Of a DNA stretch of 33,379 nt, positions 5,671 through 24,947 are shown piece after piece. The notes beneath the pieces were generated by a model. The model did no database searches. It was not told the DNA's origin and worked only from the letters and a program-made list of their open reading frames with translations. The stretch covers positions 1 to 33,379 of IMG/VR virus record IMGVR_UViG_3300007609_000057. One strand, given 5' to 3'. The position numbers were made by a program, and so were the translations under genes. The stretch is from a virus. Each line of letters opens with the position of its first letter. Position 1 is the stretch's first letter.

Positions 5671-6002
5671 TGGTCGGCCTTGTTCCAGTCCTTGTCTGGC
5701 GTGTGTGTGGAGATCCCGTAGGCTAAGTTGTGGCCGATTGCTTCGGCGAAAACTTCCACGCTTGTACCTGTTTTCTCGCCATTATCCCAATCGACAACTT
5801 CTAGCCTGCCAGTTAGCGTAACGTGCTGGCCCTTTTCGATGGATGTTAGAACGTTCTCGGCTAGTTGGCCGTAGGCTCGTATGGTGTACCAGTTAGAACG
5901 TGCTTCGTCCCTATGCTCGACCAGTCGGAAAATAGCCAACCCCTCGGCGGGGCGTGGCGTAGTTGCGACTAGGCCGGTCAGTGTGATTTGTGTTCCGTTC
6001 AT
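5667..6002 (-). CDS. ssb: Single-stranded DNA-binding protein (OB fold)
   Basis: A 111-aa protein with the SSB OB-fold order: NGTQITLTGLVATTPRPAEG, then a core with SNWYTIRAYGQLAENVLTSI, KGQHVTLTGRLEVVDWDNGE, and TSVEVFAEAIGHNLAYG. The aromatic positions and the KGxxVxVxGRL strand are those used by bacterial SSBs to bind single-stranded DNA. The C-terminal tail after about residue 97 is short and lacks the acidic DDDIPF tip that recruits host partners, so interactions with host repair proteins may differ. The start is at 6002 behind AGAGGA. It is in one operon with the sliding clamp, so a replication role is expected. Confidence 0.85.
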   Translation of the reverse strand: MNGTQITLTGLVATTPRPAEGLAIFRLVEHRDEARSNWYTIRAYGQLAENVLTSIEKGQHVTLTGRLEVVDWDNGEKTGTSVEVFAEAIGHNLAYGISTHTPDKDWNKADQ

Positions 6003-6050
6003 TGCGTCCTCTTTCGGTTGGGCGGTCGGTTGAACTATTCAAGTCTATCG

Positions 6051-6066
6051 CTATGTAGCTAAATAG
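6051..6066. promoter_or_regulatory. Operator-like palindrome, copy 1
   Basis: CTATGTAGCTAAATAG is a 16-base near-perfect palindrome (14 of 16 positions agree with its own reverse complement). It lies about 50 bases upstream of the SSB start. A second, more degenerate copy lies 93 bases away. Paired palindromes before a replication gene suggest a repressor or initiator site. Confidence 0.5.
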
Positions 6067-6143
6067 TCCACCCAATTAGGGCATTATTTGGTAACAGTTT
6101 GATAACGCTTTGGCGGTTGATTGTGCTACTGTTTAGCGTTACG

Positions 6144-6159
6144 CTATGTTGCTAAATAG
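6144..6159. promoter_or_regulatory. Operator-like palindrome, copy 2
   Basis: CTATGTTGCTAAATAG differs from copy 1 at a single base and shares the preceding CG, making an 18-base near-identical direct repeat (6049-6066 and 6142-6159). This copy is less symmetrical (12 of 16). Confidence 0.5.
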
Positions 6160-6195
6160 CAAACCCCTATCGGTGGCCCTGCCAGAATTGCTAAA

Positions 6196-6253
6196 GCGGT
6201 TATTAGTTTTAGTAACTATCCACTTGAGAATAGCTGCTGCAACTAATAACCGC
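6196..6253. repeat. Long hairpin between SSB and the 99-aa gene
   Basis: A perfect 13-bp inverted repeat, GCGGTTATTAGTT (6196-6208) and AACTAATAACCGC (6241-6253). Across a 2/2 internal loop it is extended by a further 9-position stem (AGTAACTAT with ATAGCTGCT; one wobble pair, one mismatch) around a 10-base loop. No T run follows on either strand, so a simple terminator is unlikely. RNA structure in the clamp-SSB transcript or a single-strand initiation hairpin are the main options. Confidence 0.6.
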
Positions 6254-6318
6254 TGAGATATAGCTAAGGGCTAAAAACCCGTGAGATATATCACCGAGTA
6301 AAAAACCCGAGAGATTTT
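6251..6318. repeat. Three iteron-like direct repeats
   Basis: Three related blocks begin at 6251 (CGCTGAGATATA), 6280 (CGTGAGATATAT) and 6308 (CGAGAGATTTTA), spaced 29 and 28 bases. The last two are preceded by TAAAAACC-type runs. The regular spacing recalls iterons bound by initiator proteins. Together with the hairpin and palindromes, they fill the only sizeable gap (6003-6316) in the clamp-SSB operon; no ORF worth calling lies there. Confidence 0.45.
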
Positions 6319-6616
6319 AGGCGTGATCCATAACCGCTTGCTCATATCCATCAACAAAATCTCTAATCTCATTCGGCCTACTTGAATAAGCTTCCAACGC
6401 TTCCGCTAGGTAACTTAGTTCAACATAGCCAGGTGTCTGGTTTTTTAGATTGTAGATAGTTTCCCCAAAGTGTTCTTCCGTCCACCCGATAAGGTCTAGG
6501 AACAAACTGTAGGTGTTCGGGTAGCTTTCGTTAGCTGCCCAATTGATTAGGTTAGCTATAGGCCTAGTTGTGTCGTTAGCGGTTTCTAGGTACTCGTATC
6601 CGTCCATTGTTGGCAT
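6317..6616 (-). CDS. Hypothetical acidic protein, 99 aa
   Basis: Starts at 6616 with MPTMDGYEYLETANDTTRPI behind AGAGGATAAGGAA. The protein is acidic and mostly helical, with several aromatic residues (SYPNTYSLFLDLIGWTEEHF). No metal site, signal or membrane segment. It is cotranscribed with the sliding clamp upstream and precedes the repeat-rich gap before SSB. The family is not recognised. Its place between clamp and SSB suggests a replication accessory or early takeover protein, by context only. Confidence 0.6.
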   Translation of the reverse strand: MPTMDGYEYLETANDTTRPIANLINWAANESYPNTYSLFLDLIGWTEEHFGETIYNLKNQTPGYVELSYLAEALEAYSSRPNEIRDFVDGYEQAVMDHA

Positions 6617-7287: not shown

Positions 7288-7321
7288 GTATTTTTTAAAA
7301 AAAAGTTTTTTTGTTTTTTAT

Positions 7322-7350
7322 TTGACAATTTCCAATTACTGCCCTAGTGT
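7322..7350 (+). promoter_or_regulatory. Plus promoter before a hairpin
   Basis: TTGACA (7322-7327), 17-base spacer, TAGTGT (7345-7350). The predicted start (about 7357) lies four bases before the hairpin 7361-7408, so the transcript would be very short unless terminated inefficiently. Confidence 0.4.
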
Positions 7351-7356
7351 TCTTTT

Positions 7357-7417
7357 CGGGTCGAGTGATCAATGACTTCTTCCCCCTTTCTTGACATTGA
7401 TCACTCGATCTTTTTTT
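7357..7417 (+). ncRNA. Candidate 60-nt promoter-terminator RNA
   Basis: A perfect 14-bp inverted repeat, TCGAGTGATCAATG (7361-7374) and CATTGATCACTCGA (7395-7408), with a 20-base pyrimidine-rich loop and a T7 run at 7411-7417. With the promoter just upstream this makes a complete small transcription unit of about 60 nt with no coding capacity. It could be a small RNA, an attenuated leader, or a roadblock that stops plus-strand transcription. The inverted repeat could equally be a protein-binding site. Confidence 0.4.
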
Positions 7418-7479
7418 ATGCTCAAAATATCGATCCAAAATTGCTTCTGAGATAGGCCTAAAACATAAAAAACCCTGAG

Positions 7480-7510
7480 ACAAATTCGTGTCGTGGAATG
7501 AATTTGTTCC
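7480..7510 (+). repeat. Regulatory module, copy 1
   Basis: ACAAATTCGT, five bases, then GGAATGAATTTGTTCC. The same order and spacing recurs at 7765-7795. Here it is followed by the 12-mer CATAATAATAAT at 7538-7549 and the promoter at 7536-7564. Confidence 0.6.
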
Positions 7511-7535
7511 ACCACTTACTCTCTCCTCCAAACTA

Positions 7536-7564
7536 TTCATAATAATAATATATATATATATAAT
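7536..7564 (+). promoter_or_regulatory. Plus promoter with perfect -10
   Basis: TTCATA (7536-7541), 17-base spacer, TATAAT (7559-7564) at the end of an alternating AT tract. It would transcribe the long inverted repeat at 7663-7753 and then the 84-aa gene. The -35 is weak and the AT tract may simply be an unwinding element. Confidence 0.4.
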
Positions 7565-7662
7565 CGAGGAGAGAGAGGGCTTATAAAAACAGCGATTTTG
7601 GATCGTATTTGCACAATTCTGCGTACAAATTCGTCTAAATAATCGTATTTGCGCCAAAATCC

Positions 7663-7753
7663 AAAACACTACAATGCTATACATTACAAAAAACGCTATT
7701 TGAAATAGTATTATAAATAGTGTTTTTTGTAATGTATAGTGTTATAGTGTTTT
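7663..7753 (+). repeat. Large inverted repeat with 39-base arms
   Basis: Arms 7663-7701 and 7715-7753 surround a 13-base loop. The inner 25 positions pair apart from one G-T wobble. The outer 14 have two G-T wobbles and one C-A mismatch. Read as plus-strand RNA it forms a 39-position stem with three wobbles and a single mismatch, far beyond a normal terminator, and only four T follow. The 15-mer TGCGTACAAATTCGT occurs in direct orientation on both sides (7620-7634, 7760-7774). It could be an RNA structure, a cruciform for replication or a relic of a small mobile element. Confidence 0.75.
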
Positions 7754-7764
7754 GCAAGTTGCGT

Positions 7765-7795
7765 ACAAATTCGTTTTTTGGAACAAATTTGTTCG
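7765..7795 (+). repeat. Regulatory module, copy 2, with perfect palindrome
   Basis: ACAAATTCGT, five T bases, then GGAACAAATTTGTTCG. It contains the perfect 14-base palindrome GAACAAATTTGTTC (7781-7794). The palindrome ends seven bases before the -35 of the strong promoter at 7801, an ideal place for an activator or repressor site. Confidence 0.65.
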
Positions 7796-7800
7796 CTTAC

Positions 7801-7829
7801 TTGACAACATAATAATAATCACTTATAGT
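7801..7829 (+). promoter_or_regulatory. Strong plus promoter of the early operon
   Basis: TTGACA (7801-7806), exactly 17 bases, TATAGT (7824-7829). Predicted start near 7836, then AAAGGGG and the ATG at 7860. The spacer starts with the CATAATAATAAT 12-mer shared with the copy-1 module. This is the best promoter in the window. Confidence 0.85.
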
Positions 7830-7859
7830 GATCCACAACACAACCTAAAGGGGTAAAAA

Positions 7860-8114
7860 ATGCAACAAATAGAAACAGGAAGAATAATCGCAAACTGTAT
7901 TGAATGCGGAAATAATGTAGCGGTTTGGGACGATGATCCGAAACCACTTTGTGAGTTTTGCGATCACGCCGAAACTTGCTTACCACCAAAAACTATCGTT
8001 TTTTATCAAGCGTGGTTTACTGGCACAGCAACAGCAGAATGTACCACTTGTAGCTATTTGGCAACTGGTTGGGAATGTAATTGCGATCTTGAACACGACT
8101 GCAAGAAACACTAA
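7860..8114 (+). CDS. Hypothetical two-zinc-knuckle protein, 84 aa
   Basis: First gene after the strong promoter, with ribosome site AAAGGGG. The cysteines pair as CIECG (C13/C16), CEFCDH (C31/C34), CTTC (C61/C64) and a final CNC...C cluster (C73, C75, C81), consistent with two zinc-binding knuckles. The acidic, Cys-rich make-up suggests a small adaptor or nucleic-acid-binding protein. As first gene of the early operon it may act in host takeover, which is inference from position. Family not recognised. Confidence 0.65.
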   Translation: MQQIETGRIIANCIECGNNVAVWDDDPKPLCEFCDHAETCLPPKTIVFYQAWFTGTATAECTTCSYLATGWECNCDLEHDCKKH

Positions 8115-8127
8115 GGAGAGATAACTA

Positions 8128-8310
8128 ATGAACGCATATAAGGTAACCATATTAGGCAGTAACTACAGCATTACAACCGATGTAATGGCAGTGAATGAAG
8201 ATCTTGCTTTTCAGCAAGCCCTTTACACGCTTATAAACAGCACACCAAAAATCGACCTATTCGATGAAGAACTAAGGTATGAAGCCGAGTTTTTGGAGGT
8301 TGTCGAATGA
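8128..8310 (+). CDS. Hypothetical protein, 60 aa
   Basis: A small protein, MNAYKVTILGSNYSITTDVM onward, with a good AAGGAGAG ribosome site. The pattern of a beta hairpin (YKVTILG...YSITTDV), then a helix (NEDLAFQQALYTLI) and an acidic end (DEELRYEAEFLEVVE) suggests a compact alpha/beta fold. The next gene overlaps its stop by ATGA. Family not recognised. Confidence 0.6.
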   Translation: MNAYKVTILGSNYSITTDVMAVNEDLAFQQALYTLINSTPKIDLFDEELRYEAEFLEVVE

Positions 8311-8786
8311 TCGAATACACACCAACTACGCCAGCAACTGCCGAGGCTTTTGACTATGGCTATGCAAAAGGCGTTGAGGAAGCCTTAGGAGAGCTATACG
8401 AGGTATTTGGCACAGAGCTAGAGGCAACAAGCCTATGGAAAGAATACATAGAGAAAGGAGACGATTATTCGCTAACACCAGTCAAAAAGAAAAAGTATGT
8501 ATTCGTCTACTCCTACGACCACGAGTATGACAAAAGACCATATGTCGAGGTTTTTGAAACTGAACTAGATAAAGACGGCACAGAGCAAATTGGCAGAAGT
8601 TTACAGATACACAGATACACCGATAGCGACTGCAACTGGATTGACAACAGAGAAGGCGGGACATTCTTAGGGCAGTCAAGTTGGTATGAGATCTTGACAA
8701 CAGAGGACAACTGGCAAACCCAATTCCCCGAAACTATTGTGCAGAAGCTACAAAGTTTGCCAGAATACGAGAGGTTAGAAATATGA
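8307..8786 (+). CDS. Hypothetical protein, 159 aa
   Basis: Coupled to the gene before it by ATGA, with GGAGG upstream. The N-terminus (EYTPTTPATAEAFDYGYAKG) leads to a helical acidic stretch, then a beta-rich region (KKKYVFVYSYDHEYDKRPYV) and a C-terminal EYERLEI tail. No metal site or membrane segment. Family not recognised. Confidence 0.6.
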   Translation: MIEYTPTTPATAEAFDYGYAKGVEEALGELYEVFGTELEATSLWKEYIEKGDDYSLTPVKKKKYVFVYSYDHEYDKRPYVEVFETELDKDGTEQIGRSLQIHRYTDSDCNWIDNREGGTFLGQSSWYEILTTEDNWQTQFPETIVQKLQSLPEYERLEI

Positions 8787-20436: not shown

Positions 20437-21171
20437 ATGAAAATCCTCTTTATAGATATAGAGACTACGCCCATGACGGCTTACACCTGGGGCCTCTGGC
20501 AGCAAAACGTTTCACTAAGTCAAATTATTGACTCTACCGAAATGATGTGCTTTGGTGCTCGCTGGTATGGCGAGAAAAAAGTGCACTTCAAATCTGTTCA
20601 CCATCATGGCAAAGAAGATATGCTTGAGTCTGTGCACCAACTACTAGATGAAGCCGACGTAGTTGTTGGATGGAATTCAGCATCCTTTGACAGCAAGCAC
20701 ATCAAGCGTGAGTTACTAGAGGCACAGATGCTGCCACCATCACCATATAAAGACATGGACTTGATGAGAGTAGTAAAGTCTCAGTTTAGATTCCCAAGTA
20801 ACAAGCTTGATTATGTAGCACAGAAGCTGGGCGTAGGTGCAAAGGTACAACACTCTGGTTTCGAGCTTTGGGTCAAGTGCATGGCGAATGATAAAAAAGC
20901 TTGGGCAGAGATGAAGCGATACCAGATTCAAGATGTTGACTTGCTGGTTGATCTTTATGAGAAGCTAAAGCCTTGGATCAAAAACCATCCTAACGTGGCT
21001 CTTTATGATGGCATTGAAGACGGTTGCACAAACTGCGGATCTCAGCACTTGCAGAAGCGTGGATTAGCTAGAACTAGCACGGCAAGCTATCAAAGGTATC
21101 AATGCCAGAGTTGCGGTAAGTGGCAAAGGGGAGCAAGTTTAGTAGGGAAGTCTACGAATAGGTCAATATAA
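20437..21171 (+). CDS. DnaQ-like 3'-5' exonuclease with zinc ribbon
   Basis: A 244-aa protein. The exonuclease core has FIDIETT (D7, E9), VVVGWNSASFDSKHI (D85) and RYQIQDVDLLVDLY (Y162 and D166), that is a DEDDy set. The C-terminal 50 residues form a zinc ribbon: C197/C200 and C223/C226. It degrades DNA from 3' ends; the ribbon may bind DNA or a partner. With no polymerase in the window it may act as a stand-alone proofreader or nuclease. Ribosome site AAAGGCGCAAAA precedes the ATG, and the stop overlaps the next gene by one base. Confidence 0.85.
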   Translation: MKILFIDIETTPMTAYTWGLWQQNVSLSQIIDSTEMMCFGARWYGEKKVHFKSVHHHGKEDMLESVHQLLDEADVVVGWNSASFDSKHIKRELLEAQMLPPSPYKDMDLMRVVKSQFRFPSNKLDYVAQKLGVGAKVQHSGFELWVKCMANDKKAWAEMKRYQIQDVDLLVDLYEKLKPWIKNHPNVALYDGIEDGCTNCGSQHLQKRGLARTSTASYQRYQCQSCGKWQRGASLVGKSTNRSI

Positions 21172-21458
21172 TGTTCGGCTGGTTCAAGAAGCGTAGCAAG
21201 AAAAACGAAATGCCTGCCGATCCTTTTGAGGGGTTAGAAGACACTGGACCAGAGTTTGTAGTTGAACAATACTTTGATGAAGAACGTGGCTTGACTATCT
21301 GGATTGAGCTTGTGTGCACCTGCGGCTTACCGGTTGCCAGAAAAGGTGAAGACAGTTTTTATTGCCTACACTGTGATGAAGGATGCGATGAAGATCCAGC
21401 TCGCTGTAAGTACTGCCAATACGCAATGATGGACAGAGAAGAAGAAGACGAGTTCTGA
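21171..21458 (+). CDS. Cysteine-rich acidic protein, 95 aa
   Basis: Begins MFGWFKKRSKKNEMPADPFE: a short aromatic and very basic start, then an acidic body with seven Cys (C49, C51, C65, C68, C72, C79, C82) that could hold two zinc ions, and an acidic end DREEEDEF. It is the last gene of the replication operon, coupled by TAATG. Family not recognised. Confidence 0.6.
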   Translation: MFGWFKKRSKKNEMPADPFEGLEDTGPEFVVEQYFDEERGLTIWIELVCTCGLPVARKGEDSFYCLHCDEGCDEDPARCKYCQYAMMDREEEDEF

Positions 21459-21522: not shown

Positions 21523-21555
21523 TTCGTGCAGTGAATAAAATCGTGAATTTGTAAC

Positions 21556-21604
21556 AAGTGTTGATACAAAATCACATACCAACACGTAATAAGCTAAGTG
21601 TTGG
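21556..21604. promoter_or_regulatory. Operator-like triple half-site
   Basis: AAGTGTTG at 21556-21563, the inverted CAACAC at 21580-21585, and AAGTGTTGG again at 21596-21604. The last copy overlaps the -35 box of the promoter at 21601. The arrangement fits cooperative binding of a regulator that controls the methyltransferase unit. Confidence 0.5.
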
Positions 21605-21629
21605 CAAAACTACCGCTAAACCGTTATAT
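21601..21629 (+). promoter_or_regulatory. Promoter of the methyltransferase unit
   Basis: TTGGCA (21601-21606), 17-base spacer, TTATAT (21624-21629). Predicted start near 21636, followed by CAGGAGG before the ATG at 21648. The 189-base gap 21459-21647 contains this promoter and the repeats above and no ORF. Confidence 0.65.
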
Positions 21630-21647
21630 TTTTGACAGGAGGCAAAA

Positions 21648-22232
21648 ATGACAGATACACCAGAGGAAACCGCTAGGAAGCGGCAGCTATTGAAAGAGCT
21701 TATTCAGCTTGAGCAAGAAGCGGGATTATATGACGAGATAGTGTCTCCGGAAGAGGCTGTTGCAATAACCAAGCAGGTCAGGAAAGAGCTTTATGAGGAA
21801 AGAGAGCGTGAGCGTAACCGCATCGTGTCCCGATTGAAAGAGTACGTAGAAGACCTTAGACTATGCAGCAAGAAAGACAGCTGTGCTGATATTGCTGATG
21901 CGATCCAAGGACAGATTGAAGAAATAACGGGAGAACAAATGGATAACGAAGAGTTTATTGACGGCATGGCAGAAGTGCATGAGGTTGTTTATACGACCTT
22001 AGACAGATTGCAGCAGAGCATAAACGACATGATGGGTGTCTACATGGACATGCCAGACGACATCACAAGGCAGAACCCAGAGGTCAAAGAGCTATCAGCT
22101 ATGCACGCAGTGCTCAATCAGTTTAGGGAGATGTTCATTGACAACTATGATGAGGCCATGCGTAACTATTACTCATCAAAATCTTGGCGTGAGGATGCAG
22201 AAGAACTAAAAGGCGAATGGCCTGAGGTATGA
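21648..22232 (+). CDS. Coiled-coil protein upstream of methyltransferase, 194 aa
   Basis: Begins MTDTPEETARKRQLLKELIQ; highly charged and helical almost throughout, with a strong coiled-coil stretch at about 58-85 (KELYEERERERNRIVSRLKE). It has only two Cys and no known catalytic motif. Good CAGGAGG ribosome site. It overlaps the methyltransferase start by ATGA, so the two proteins should be made together; it may be a partner or specificity factor, or an unrelated early protein. Family not recognised. Confidence 0.6.
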   Translation: MTDTPEETARKRQLLKELIQLEQEAGLYDEIVSPEEAVAITKQVRKELYEERERERNRIVSRLKEYVEDLRLCSKKDSCADIADAIQGQIEEITGEQMDNEEFIDGMAEVHEVVYTTLDRLQQSINDMMGVYMDMPDDITRQNPEVKELSAMHAVLNQFREMFIDNYDEAMRNYYSSKSWREDAEELKGEWPEV

Positions 22233-23218
22233 GGACTAATGCCAAGATTTACATAGGTGACGCAGTCGAAGGAATGAAGCAACTAGAAAACGAGTCGGTG
22301 CAGACAGTAGTTACATCTCCTCCTTATTGGGGACTAAGGGATTATGGACAAGAAGCACAGCTTGGACTTGAGTCAACACCTCACGAGTTTATAGAGAACC
22401 TTTGTAAAGTCTTTGACGAAGTTTGGAGAGTGCTTGCCGATGATGGGACTCTTTGGGTGAACTTAGGTGACAGCTATGCGAGCTTTAGGGATAGTAAGTC
22501 AGTGCCAGACAGTCTTAGAGAAGGAGACGGAACAGCAGTAGGTCAGGCCAGTAATGGTAATCCTGAAATGCTAAGGCAGTCAGGTCTTAAGCATAAAGAC
22601 TTAGTTGGAATTCCGTGGAGGTTTGCTTTTGCTATGCAAGACCGAGGTTGGTATCTACGCCAAGACATTATCTGGGCAAAACCGAACCCAATGCCAGAGA
22701 GCGTGAAGGACCGTTGCACTAAGTCGCATGAGTATGTGTTTTTGTTAACTAAAAAGCCTCGTTATTATTTTGACCACGAGGTGATTAGGGAGCGCGGGGT
22801 TATGACAAGAGGCGACAGTGCTGGTTCTAGCCAGAGGAACACCATTAAAACGCATGGGGTTGGTGGCGGTAATAGTGGAATAAACGTCGCTAAGGAAAAG
22901 CTTGCTAAGGAGATCGAGGAAAAAGGTTTTTCTACTCGAAACAAACGTTCAGTGTGGACTGTTGCAACAAAAAGTTTTAAAGGCGCTCACTTTGCAACTT
23001 ATCCCACTGAATTAATCGAGCCTTGCATTTTGGCAGGCTCAAAGGAAGGCGACACGGTACTAGACCCATTTAGCGGAAGTGGTACAACCGGTCAGGTTGC
23101 AATGCAACACAACCGCAACTACATCGGTTTAGAGCTGAACCCTGACTACGCAAAGATTAGTGAGAAGAGGCTGCGCGATGCACTCGGCATGTTTGGCGAG
23201 ATTAAAATTATTGACTAA
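22229..23218 (+). CDS. Beta-class DNA methyltransferase (N6-A or N4-C)
   Basis: A 329-aa enzyme. The catalytic motif IV, VTSPPYWGLRDYG (28-40), comes before the SAM-binding motif I, VLDPFSGSGTTGQ (277-289), the order of class-beta amino-methyltransferases. SPPYW is common in N4-cytosine and some N6-adenine enzymes, so the modified base cannot be settled. A target-recognition region lies between (about 90-240). It ends YIGLELNPDYAKISEKRL, a normal C-terminal motif. No restriction partner is present, so protection of phage DNA from host restriction or regulation of phage genes is the likely role. Confidence 0.85.
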   Translation: MRTNAKIYIGDAVEGMKQLENESVQTVVTSPPYWGLRDYGQEAQLGLESTPHEFIENLCKVFDEVWRVLADDGTLWVNLGDSYASFRDSKSVPDSLREGDGTAVGQASNGNPEMLRQSGLKHKDLVGIPWRFAFAMQDRGWYLRQDIIWAKPNPMPESVKDRCTKSHEYVFLLTKKPRYYFDHEVIRERGVMTRGDSAGSSQRNTIKTHGVGGGNSGINVAKEKLAKEIEEKGFSTRNKRSVWTVATKSFKGAHFATYPTELIEPCILAGSKEGDTVLDPFSGSGTTGQVAMQHNRNYIGLELNPDYAKISEKRLRDALGMFGEIKIID

Positions 23219-23280
23219 AAACTTGTTCGATAGAATAGAAGTGCCCTTGCGTAACTACCACTCAAGTAAAAATCAGACGT

Positions 23281-23286
23281 TATAAT
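23281..23286 (+). promoter_or_regulatory. -10 box for the structured RNA
   Basis: A perfect TATAAT at 23281-23286, with transcription expected to begin near 23293. The -35 region (about 23257-23264) is poor, so the promoter is uncertain; readthrough from the methyltransferase gene is an alternative. Confidence 0.4.
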
Positions 23287-23559
23287 TAGATAGGACTCGC
23301 CCTGTGAGCATCGTCAAGACCAGGGTAGTGCTTCACCGGATGGTGCGGGCGTGGTGCAACTCCACAGAGTCCACTGCTCACAGTTGGTCACTTGCTGTGG
23401 GGTCAACTTCGCCTAGAGTTTCGTCTCTAGAGAGTGACAAACAGCATTACCCTTCGCTCTGCAACGGTTTGGGATGGGAGTACTCGTCCGACTGGAAGTT
23501 GCAAGTCAACGGTGATGGTGGGGGTCAGACCCATTGCTAAGGCAGGTCTGGCCCCGCTA

Positions 23560-23633
23560 GCCCCCGTAGTCCAATCGGCAGAGACAGGCGACTTAAAATC
23601 GGCACAGTGTGGGTTCGAATCCCACTAGGGGCA
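23560..23633 (+). tRNA. tRNA with UAA anticodon (Leu by anticodon)
   Basis: A 74-nt cloverleaf. Acceptor GCCCCCG with TAGGGGC (five pairs, one mismatch, one wobble), short D arm GTC/GAC with GG in the loop, anticodon stem GGCGA/TCGGC (one mismatch), loop CTTAAAA with anticodon TAA, 5-base variable loop ACAGT, T arm GTGGG-TTCGAAT-CCCAC, discriminator A. No CCA is encoded. By anticodon it reads UUA (Leu), but a leucine tRNA normally has a long variable arm, which this lacks, so charging identity is uncertain. It would help decode UUA, which is used in these AT-leaning genes. Confidence 0.8.
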
Positions 23634-23674
23634 CGGTGGCTACCAGCTTTGCTGGGGAGAAATCCCACACCCGA

Positions 23675-23714
23675 TCCCGTGAGGAGTAGTAGCAGGAGTA
23701 GCGGGACTTTTTTT
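23675..23714 (+). terminator. Intrinsic terminator, plus strand
   Basis: TCCCG (23675-23679) pairs with CGGGA (23702-23706), 22-base loop, then seven T (23708-23714). It ends the RNA/tRNA transcript and faces the converging minus-strand lysis genes. Confidence 0.6.
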
Positions 23715-23752
23715 GTTATCTAGAGGCGACTTTAGTAAATGTCAGTTATAAG

Positions 23753-23986
23753 TTACAGCTCGTAAATATCTGGGTTTTTCTTGGTTTCTTTTGGAGACCT
23801 CTGGGTAATGATCGAAGTGAGTACAGACAAGAAGGCAGCTCCGAGAGACACGCTAAGCATGTTAGTCCAGTTAACTTCAAACAGTCCTACTGTCCCAGTT
23901 CCCAAGAAAGCTAAGGCCGCTTGTGCCCAAGTTTTCACAGCACGTTCTCCGGCATAATTCAAAAATTCTAAGCTAAATAGTTTCAT
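23753..23986 (-). CDS. Holin, r1t-like
   Basis: A 77-aa protein with two predicted membrane segments, about 17-36 (KTWAQAALAFLGTGTVGLFE) and 42-60 (MLSVSLGAAFLSVLTSII), and a charged tail. ERAVKTWAQ...FEVNW...LSVSLGAAFLSVLTSI matches the r1t-type holin pattern common in actinophages. It forms holes in the cytoplasmic membrane so that the endolysin can reach the wall. It is the last gene of the minus-strand late unit and overlaps the preceding membrane-protein gene by 4 bases. Confidence 0.8.
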   Translation of the reverse strand: MKLFSLEFLNYAGERAVKTWAQAALAFLGTGTVGLFEVNWTNMLSVSLGAAFLSVLTSIITQRSPKETKKNPDIYEL

Positions 23987-24285
23987 GGTTCGATATCCAA
24001 ATCTTTGTTGATCTTATCGTCTATTGTACTACCTGCCACATATGCCGAGACGATAATTGAAAGCAAAGTGACACCCCCAGTGATAAGTGCCGTAGCAACT
24101 TCTGGGTAAATAAAAAACGCAACTGCACCAAAGACAACCATAAATACAGAAACTCGGTATGAGCCGTAAATTAGTCTTCTACGAAACTTCCAGCGATCTT
24201 TAGGATCATCGTCTTTACCAGAGATAAAAAACAATCCATCCCATGCAACCTGTGCGTATTTCTTTAGAGTGGCTTTCCGCAACAC
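23983..24285 (-). CDS. Two-pass membrane protein of the lysis cassette
   Basis: A 100-aa protein with a basic N-terminal half (KDRWKFRRRLIYGSYR) and two membrane segments at about 46-63 (VSVFMVVFGAVAFFIYPE) and 65-84 (ATALITGGVTLLSIIVSAYV). Between endolysin and holin genes, it is probably a second holin or antiholin. It overlaps the endolysin gene by 22 bases. Family not named. Confidence 0.6.
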   Translation of the reverse strand: MLRKATLKKYAQVAWDGLFFISGKDDDPKDRWKFRRRLIYGSYRVSVFMVVFGAVAFFIYPEVATALITGGVTLLSIIVSAYVAGSTIDDKINKDLDIEP

Positions 24286-24947
24286 TTGCAGACTTCTCCT
24301 TTATCCTTTTGGGCAAAGAACCTGCTGAGAAGCCCGAAAATCGATTCTGAGGGACTTTCACCCTTCTCAGCGGCAACCACATCAGAAGAGTCCTGTTTGG
24401 GCTTCTGTGGCTTTTTTACTGGCTCTTTTTTTTCTTTTTCTTCTTCTTTTTTCCGCTGTATGGCATTTTTGTCATATTCCTTTATTTTTTGGTCAATAAA
24501 CTTTTCGATGTCAAAAGTTTTGGCATATCGAGGATCTGGAGTCTTGTGGATTGTGACATGGACGTGATCGCCGCGACTGCAATCCCCGCTATTCCCCTGA
24601 CGACCTACTGGCTGGTCAAACTTTAGTTTGTCGCCAACTTTTAGGTTCTTCATGCAGGTTGATCCATCGCTGTGCCCTTTACCATCACAATCTGTGCCAT
24701 GAGTCGCACAGTTCAAGTGAGAGTAGCCAACATAAAGACCTTCGTCATTTGTTTTCTGTACAATGTACCAACCGAGACACTTAGAGTAATCAATTTTTAC
24801 AACCTCACCTGCGGTTACCGCACGGATCAAATCTTTCTTTTTAGGACTGGCGTAGTCGGTTCCGCGATGTGGTGACTTTCTGCCAGCTGTTGCGCCATAT
24901 TGAGCTGTTATGTAGCTCTTTGGCATCGGATGTTGCCATTTGTTCAT
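24264..24947 (-). CDS. Endolysin, M23-type peptidase
   Basis: A 227-aa protein whose N-terminal 150 residues are an M23/LytM-like zinc peptidase: HRGTDYA (H27, D31), VGYSHLNC (H77) and GDHVHVTI (H128, H130), the expected metal and catalytic residues. These enzymes cut cross-links in peptidoglycan. Then follow a Lys/Glu-rich linker (about 160-200) and an unusual C-terminus, EVCKCCGKPL, with three Cys close together. There is no signal peptide, so release depends on the holin. Confidence 0.85.
   Translation of the reverse strand: MNKWQHPMPKSYITAQYGATAGRKSPHRGTDYASPKKKDLIRAVTAGEVVKIDYSKCLGWYIVQKTNDEGLYVGYSHLNCATHGTDCDGKGHSDGSTCMKNLKVGDKLKFDQPVGRQGNSGDCSRGDHVHVTIHKTPDPRYAKTFDIEKFIDQKIKEYDKNAIQRKKEEEKEKKEPVKKPQKPKQDSSDVVAAEKGESPSESIFGLLSRFFAQKDKGEVCKCCGKPL

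Follow-up and report, generated by a model that had tools for sequence, protein, structure and literature searches.

An orphan candidate RNA gene with an embedded tRNA-Leu in an accessory block of a phage genome fragment

The window analysed here is the whole of an IMG/VR record (33,379 bp), and in it we describe a stretch of about 420 nt, from a TATAAT box to a terminator, that we read, by a modest preference, as an orphan phage ncRNA gene carried as cargo, with a tRNA embedded in it. Support for reading the stretch as a structured, non-coding RNA that contains a tRNA comes from its strand-specific stability, its high-GC island, the spacing of its promoter, its terminator, the absence of a coding signal and its setting in an accessory cassette.

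Genome setting and accessory block

The window encodes the genes of a tailed phage (portal, terminase, tape measure, primase, helicase, exonuclease and a Sak4-like protein), and since genes are cut at both ends it is a genome fragment; two WhiB genes point to an actinobacterial host. The original prediction had placed a large structured RNA between methyltransferase and lysis genes, and this placement holds, with the methyltransferase upstream and the convergent holin/endopeptidase module downstream (Table 1). The feature thereby sits in the junction at which rightward early/replication genes face leftward lysis genes.

Table 1. Coordinates of the RNA feature, its predicted parts and the neighbouring genes in the window
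Feature	Position	Strand or direction	Remarks
Exonuclease	20437-21171	rightward	close to the end of the early/replication genes
95-aa ORF	21171-21458	rightward	after the exonuclease
194-aa protein	21648-22232	+	accessory block; no Pfam, PHROG or PADLOC match
N6/N4 DNA methyltransferase	22229-23218	+	accessory block; PF01555 E 1.5e-51; PADLOC MTase_II
-10 box TATAAT	23281-23286	+	puts +1 at G23293, first base of P1; no good -35
Cloverleaf-like 5' domain	23293-23372	+	local fold, MFE = centroid
P1 (5' domain)	23293-23298/23367-23372	+	6 bp
P2 (5' domain)	23299-23307/23314-23326	+	local fold
P3 (5' domain)	23330-23337/23342-23350	+	local fold
P4 (5' domain)	23351-23354/23362-23365	+	7-nt T-loop-like UGCAACU loop
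P5	23377-23384/23394-23401	+	local fold, probability 0.98
P6	23402-23438	+	inner stem 23413-23418/23425-23430; local fold
P7, long irregular hairpin	23442-23520	+	z -2.8 on +, 0.0 on -
P8 hairpin	23521-23555	+	11-bp helix, one G-U; z -4.2 on +, -2.9 on -
tRNA-Leu (anticodon UAA)	23560-23633 (3' end 23633/4)	+	ARAGORN; RF00005 46.6 bits, gathering 29
3' three-way element	23635-23671	+	GGUG/CACC around CAGC-CUUUG-type and GGGA-GAAA-UCCC hairpins; local fold
Terminator	23675-23714	+	6-bp stem 23675-23680/23701-23706, 20-nt loop, T7 23708-23714
r1t-type holin	23753-23986	-	convergent, end of lysis module; PF16945 E 1.6e-22
M23 endopeptidase	24264-24947	leftward	lysis module; small membrane-type protein gene also leftward

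In the closest relatives, L048/L049 (= L072/L073), which share 84% DNA identity over 12 kb continuing into the lysis module, 115 bp replaces window positions 21527-23720, and the methyltransferase is missing from the junction. L074, L077, L078, L080 and L082 possess both flanks with 33-400 bp between them, and none of these junctions holds a tRNA, a methyltransferase or a matching RNA; those of L077 and L080 carry a plain GC-rich hairpin terminator. Because relatives with both flanks lack the RNA, the tRNA and the methyltransferase, the 194-aa gene (whose product has a partial 54% match in L092), the methyltransferase and the RNA/tRNA together make up an accessory block of ~2.2 kb, which among the relatives compared appears to have been gained, or else retained, by this lineage alone.

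A convergent junction would also suit a transcription-level role, in which the feature is a folded buffer or terminator separating early (+) from lysis (-) transcripts, and the simple hairpins of L077 and L080 lie exactly there. However, a terminator needs far less than 420 bp, a tRNA and a separate -10 box, and the stability of the feature is strand-specific, so that we consider such a role improbable.

Several other elements of the genome were noted in passing. A palindrome-rich element (..TTTAGTAAATGTCAGTTATAAGTTAC) at 23721-23760, flanked by the terminator and by the stop codon of the holin gene, is kept in L048, L043, L044 and L099, its position relative to the holin/lysin genes varying, and is perhaps a regulator-binding or recombination site. 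The divergent, AT-rich intergenic region 7290-7860 (fold z -9.2), 80% conserved in L072/L073, holds a 53-nt inverted repeat (7655-7707/7709-7761), two identical 14-bp repeats (7361-7374/7395-7408) and several copies of ACAAATTCGT, and has the look of an origin of replication or a control region. Intergenic positions 6000-6320 are rich in long inverted repeats, show structure whichever strand is folded (z -4.5 and -4.8) and gave no BLAST match in the fetched relatives.

Boundaries, coding potential and the embedded tRNA

The TATAAT box that the original prediction took as the 5' boundary is present and ends 6 nt 5' of the first base of P1, where the usual -10 spacing would start transcription. 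With 13 occurrences of the motif over the two strands of the 33 kb (5 of them on the + strand), so precise a position is unlikely to be fortuitous, though the coincidence was noticed post hoc. A consensus promoter scan found neither a full sigma-70 site at the box nor a consensus -35. The intrinsic terminator read at the 3' boundary stands as far as its T7 run after a 6-bp stem is concerned, but it is atypical owing to its long loop and is not listed by a consensus terminator scan.

Between these boundaries the GC content is 56% as against 43.6% genome-wide, the maximum among all 430-nt windows. The - strand of the feature has no ORF of at least 60 aa, and the two on the + strand (78 and 64 aa) have no counterpart among the PHROG families and found no relatives in back-translated pattern searches. 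Moreover, their GC by codon position (49/52/63 and 55/59/55%, respectively) departs from the 54/40/38% of the phage core. With no family, no relatives and the wrong codon pattern, a protein-coding reading of these frames was rejected, in agreement with the earlier view that the ~420 bases carry no credible gene.

The normal tRNA claimed near the 3' end proved to be a tRNA-Leu(taa) with the cloverleaf and sequence signature of RF00005. It has a short variable loop and a G-G mismatch in the anticodon stem, and its CCA is not encoded. By BLAST similar tRNAs occur in many phages, and the tRNA-Leu of the related contig L014 is 85% identical over 61 nt. It is an ordinary member of the phage tRNA genes, differing in that it stands singly inside a longer folded predicted transcript and not in an array. 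UUA is not unusually common among leucine codons, at 13.8% in the phage core and 18.9% of the 37 in the cassette.

These properties bear on the main rival reading, which is quite possible if on balance doubtful: that the feature is a plain phage tRNA gene whose long GC-rich leader and trailer may be what is left of a decayed tRNA array or host DNA acquired with the tRNA, the leader being removed and degraded and its folds without a role. It would account for the tRNA being the only recognisable part, for the rest having no homologue in any search and for a 5' cloverleaf that alone is not above chance. It does not sit well with the strand-specific folding excess and hairpin P8, or with a promoter positioned exactly at P1, nor did ARAGORN searches at 80-90% of the threshold give a second tRNA. 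Tied to the tRNA as well is tRNA-dependent lysogeny, in which a phage tRNA makes up for a host tRNA that integration has disrupted and which is known in actinobacteriophages (PMC10865867); we hold it to be very unlikely here, as no integrase was found among the proteins scanned from this contig, itself a fragment.

As separate observations, tRNA-Thr and/or tRNA-Asn lie immediately 5' of the primase gene in relatives that share this primase (L084 9811-9963, L096 4567-4716, L102 9829-9978 and L104 9895-9967), not at the convergent junction. L014, which has a related methyltransferase, encodes a full tmRNA at 8034-8369 (-) (145.5 bits, tag AESRSAFALAA) together with its tRNA-Leu and a tRNA-Gln.

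Folding of the feature

The first 80 nt were thought to adopt a tRNA-like cloverleaf, and such a fold does form locally, with pairing probabilities of 0.99-1.0 for P1 and 0.98-0.99 for P4 when folded up to 23440, but its stability alone is not above chance (z -1.3, 64/500 shuffles). The idea that this domain is a second tRNA found no support, since neither Rfam (RF00005, E <= 10) nor ARAGORN at its default, 90% and 80% thresholds reports a tRNA in 23293-23372. Positions 23340-23367 match Rhodobacter phage RcSimone-Hastad at 27/28 nt, but inside a coding gene and without similarity to either side, and this match was set aside as chance.

It had further been proposed that the cloverleaf alternates with an exact 9-bp helix, 23302-23310/23375-23383, as a switch. 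The helix exists as described, but an equally long one is found in 12% of shuffles, which is no better than chance, and its probability is 0.00 in every fold window, so that a mutually exclusive switch is unsupported.

The folding signal is found further 3', in the part containing P5-P8. When compared with dinucleotide shuffles, 23376-23559 has a z of -4.4 on the + strand (0/1000 as stable) and of -1.8 on the - strand, and every sub-hairpin tested within it is more stable on the + strand. The difference between the strands comes from G-U pairs and speaks for a + strand RNA. Across the genome, z <= -4.5 is reached in 3 of 362 equal-size windows, which puts the signal in the top percent or so; the excess is therefore not unique and is common to a few other stretches. 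The 11-bp helix with one wobble that the original prediction singled out is present as 23521-23531/23545-23555, although helices of that length with wobbles occur in 65% of shuffles.

Downstream of the tRNA, the predicted GNRA-capped hairpin (GGGA-GAAA-UCCC, 23655-23666) forms in the local fold, and the stability of the post-tRNA hairpins is not above chance (z +0.5). When the whole 424 nt is folded, long-range pairings displace many local helices and compete with those of the 5' part; we infer that co-transcriptional folding would favour the local helices over the long-range ones.

Relation to known RNAs and possible role

GOLLD and ROOL are, by habitat, the closest known systems, being phage RNAs near tRNA islands whose function is not known (PMC12286853), and kinship to them had been suggested. 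This suggestion found no support. The tRNA is the sole real Rfam match in the feature, the remaining cmscan matches at E <= 10 being chance or tRNA-derived. For GOLLD (RF02032) neither cmscan at that threshold nor a direct covariance model search of its conserved region gave a match, and for ROOL (RF03087) cmscan and the direct model were likewise negative, though the control set has no ROOL match either and this is a weak negative. GOLLD sometimes has tRNAs in a linker region (PMC12286853) and resembles the feature in being a phage-borne structured RNA near or around tRNAs, here with the tRNA inside and phage genes around it; however, many of its members exceed 800 nt (PMC12286853), and the feature, at ~420 nt including the tRNA or 267 if it is left out, is about half that length or less. 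GOLLD identity was rejected on the missing match and this length. ROOL, a phage or prophage RNA near tRNA islands as here (PMC12286853), has a model of 574 positions, and the feature is shorter. That a strongly diverged or reduced relative of either works here as an RNA multimer thus has the shared habitat, next to or around a tRNA, in its favour, but with no match to either model at E <= 10 and such lengths we give it very little credence. tmRNA (RF00023) is of the same size class and has a tRNA-like part, but has no match in the window, and was rejected, the same tools detecting the tmRNA of L014.

No homologue of the RNA was found in 50,697 phage records, 72,556 plasmids or 36 related viral records, nor in IMG/VR with 12 back-translated patterns and one exact pattern, nor in 84,980 species genomes with 6 patterns; these pattern scans respond to runs of ~24 nt that are identical except for synonymous changes, and could miss a clearly diverged homologue. 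A match in a Krumholzibacteriota record (L069) falls in a coding, lipoprotein-like gene and was discarded as chance. Covariance models built from the single sequence of either the 5' domain or P5-P8 recovered only themselves in ~890 kb of related phage contigs, the next best hit having an E of 0.93. The mark of a new structured RNA class would be compensating base changes among homologues, and on the single copy found such a class is conjectural. In its fullest form it would be a class of compact tRNA-carrying phage RNAs in which a tRNA-shaped domain seals the 5' end and P5-P8 serve as an RNA effector, such as a decoy that occupies host factors or defences reading tRNAs, supplied along with a functional tRNA; this seems to us unlikely.

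Our preferred reading remains the cargo RNA gene, while recognising that the missing homologue, the folding excess elsewhere in the genome, the cloverleaf and 3' hairpins that alone are no more stable than chance, the long-range full-length fold, the lack of a consensus -35, the long terminator loop and the unremarkable use of UUA all speak against it. In this scheme transcription would run for ~420 nt from the dedicated promoter, with its start at G23293, to the T7 terminator. The first ~267 nt would comprise a cloverleaf-like domain that may cap the 5' end and, after it, the hairpins P5, P6, P7 and P8, with tRNA-Leu(UAA) next in line. Excision of the tRNA by RNase P and 3'-processing enzymes of the host would then yield, besides the tRNA, a stable 5' RNA ~267 nt long. 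The RNA gene would have arrived with the methyltransferase and the 194-aa protein, as one block between the early/replication and lysis operons.

At present we can suggest a use by analogy only. Phage tRNAs are established as counter-defence in other phages (PMC10264068, PMC11555353), and the analogy with phage tRNAs facing tRNA-cutting defences, together with the company of a methyltransferase, makes host takeover or protection of infection the most likely use. The tRNA may stand in for a leucine tRNA in short supply or cleaved by a host defence, and the methyltransferase may shield phage DNA, with the RNA acting alongside. The value of the finding depends on a second copy or a transcript; given either, an independent RNA smaller than GOLLD or ROOL, carried as cargo next to a methyltransferase, would make it easier to test whether large tRNA-associated phage RNAs have a counter-defence role.
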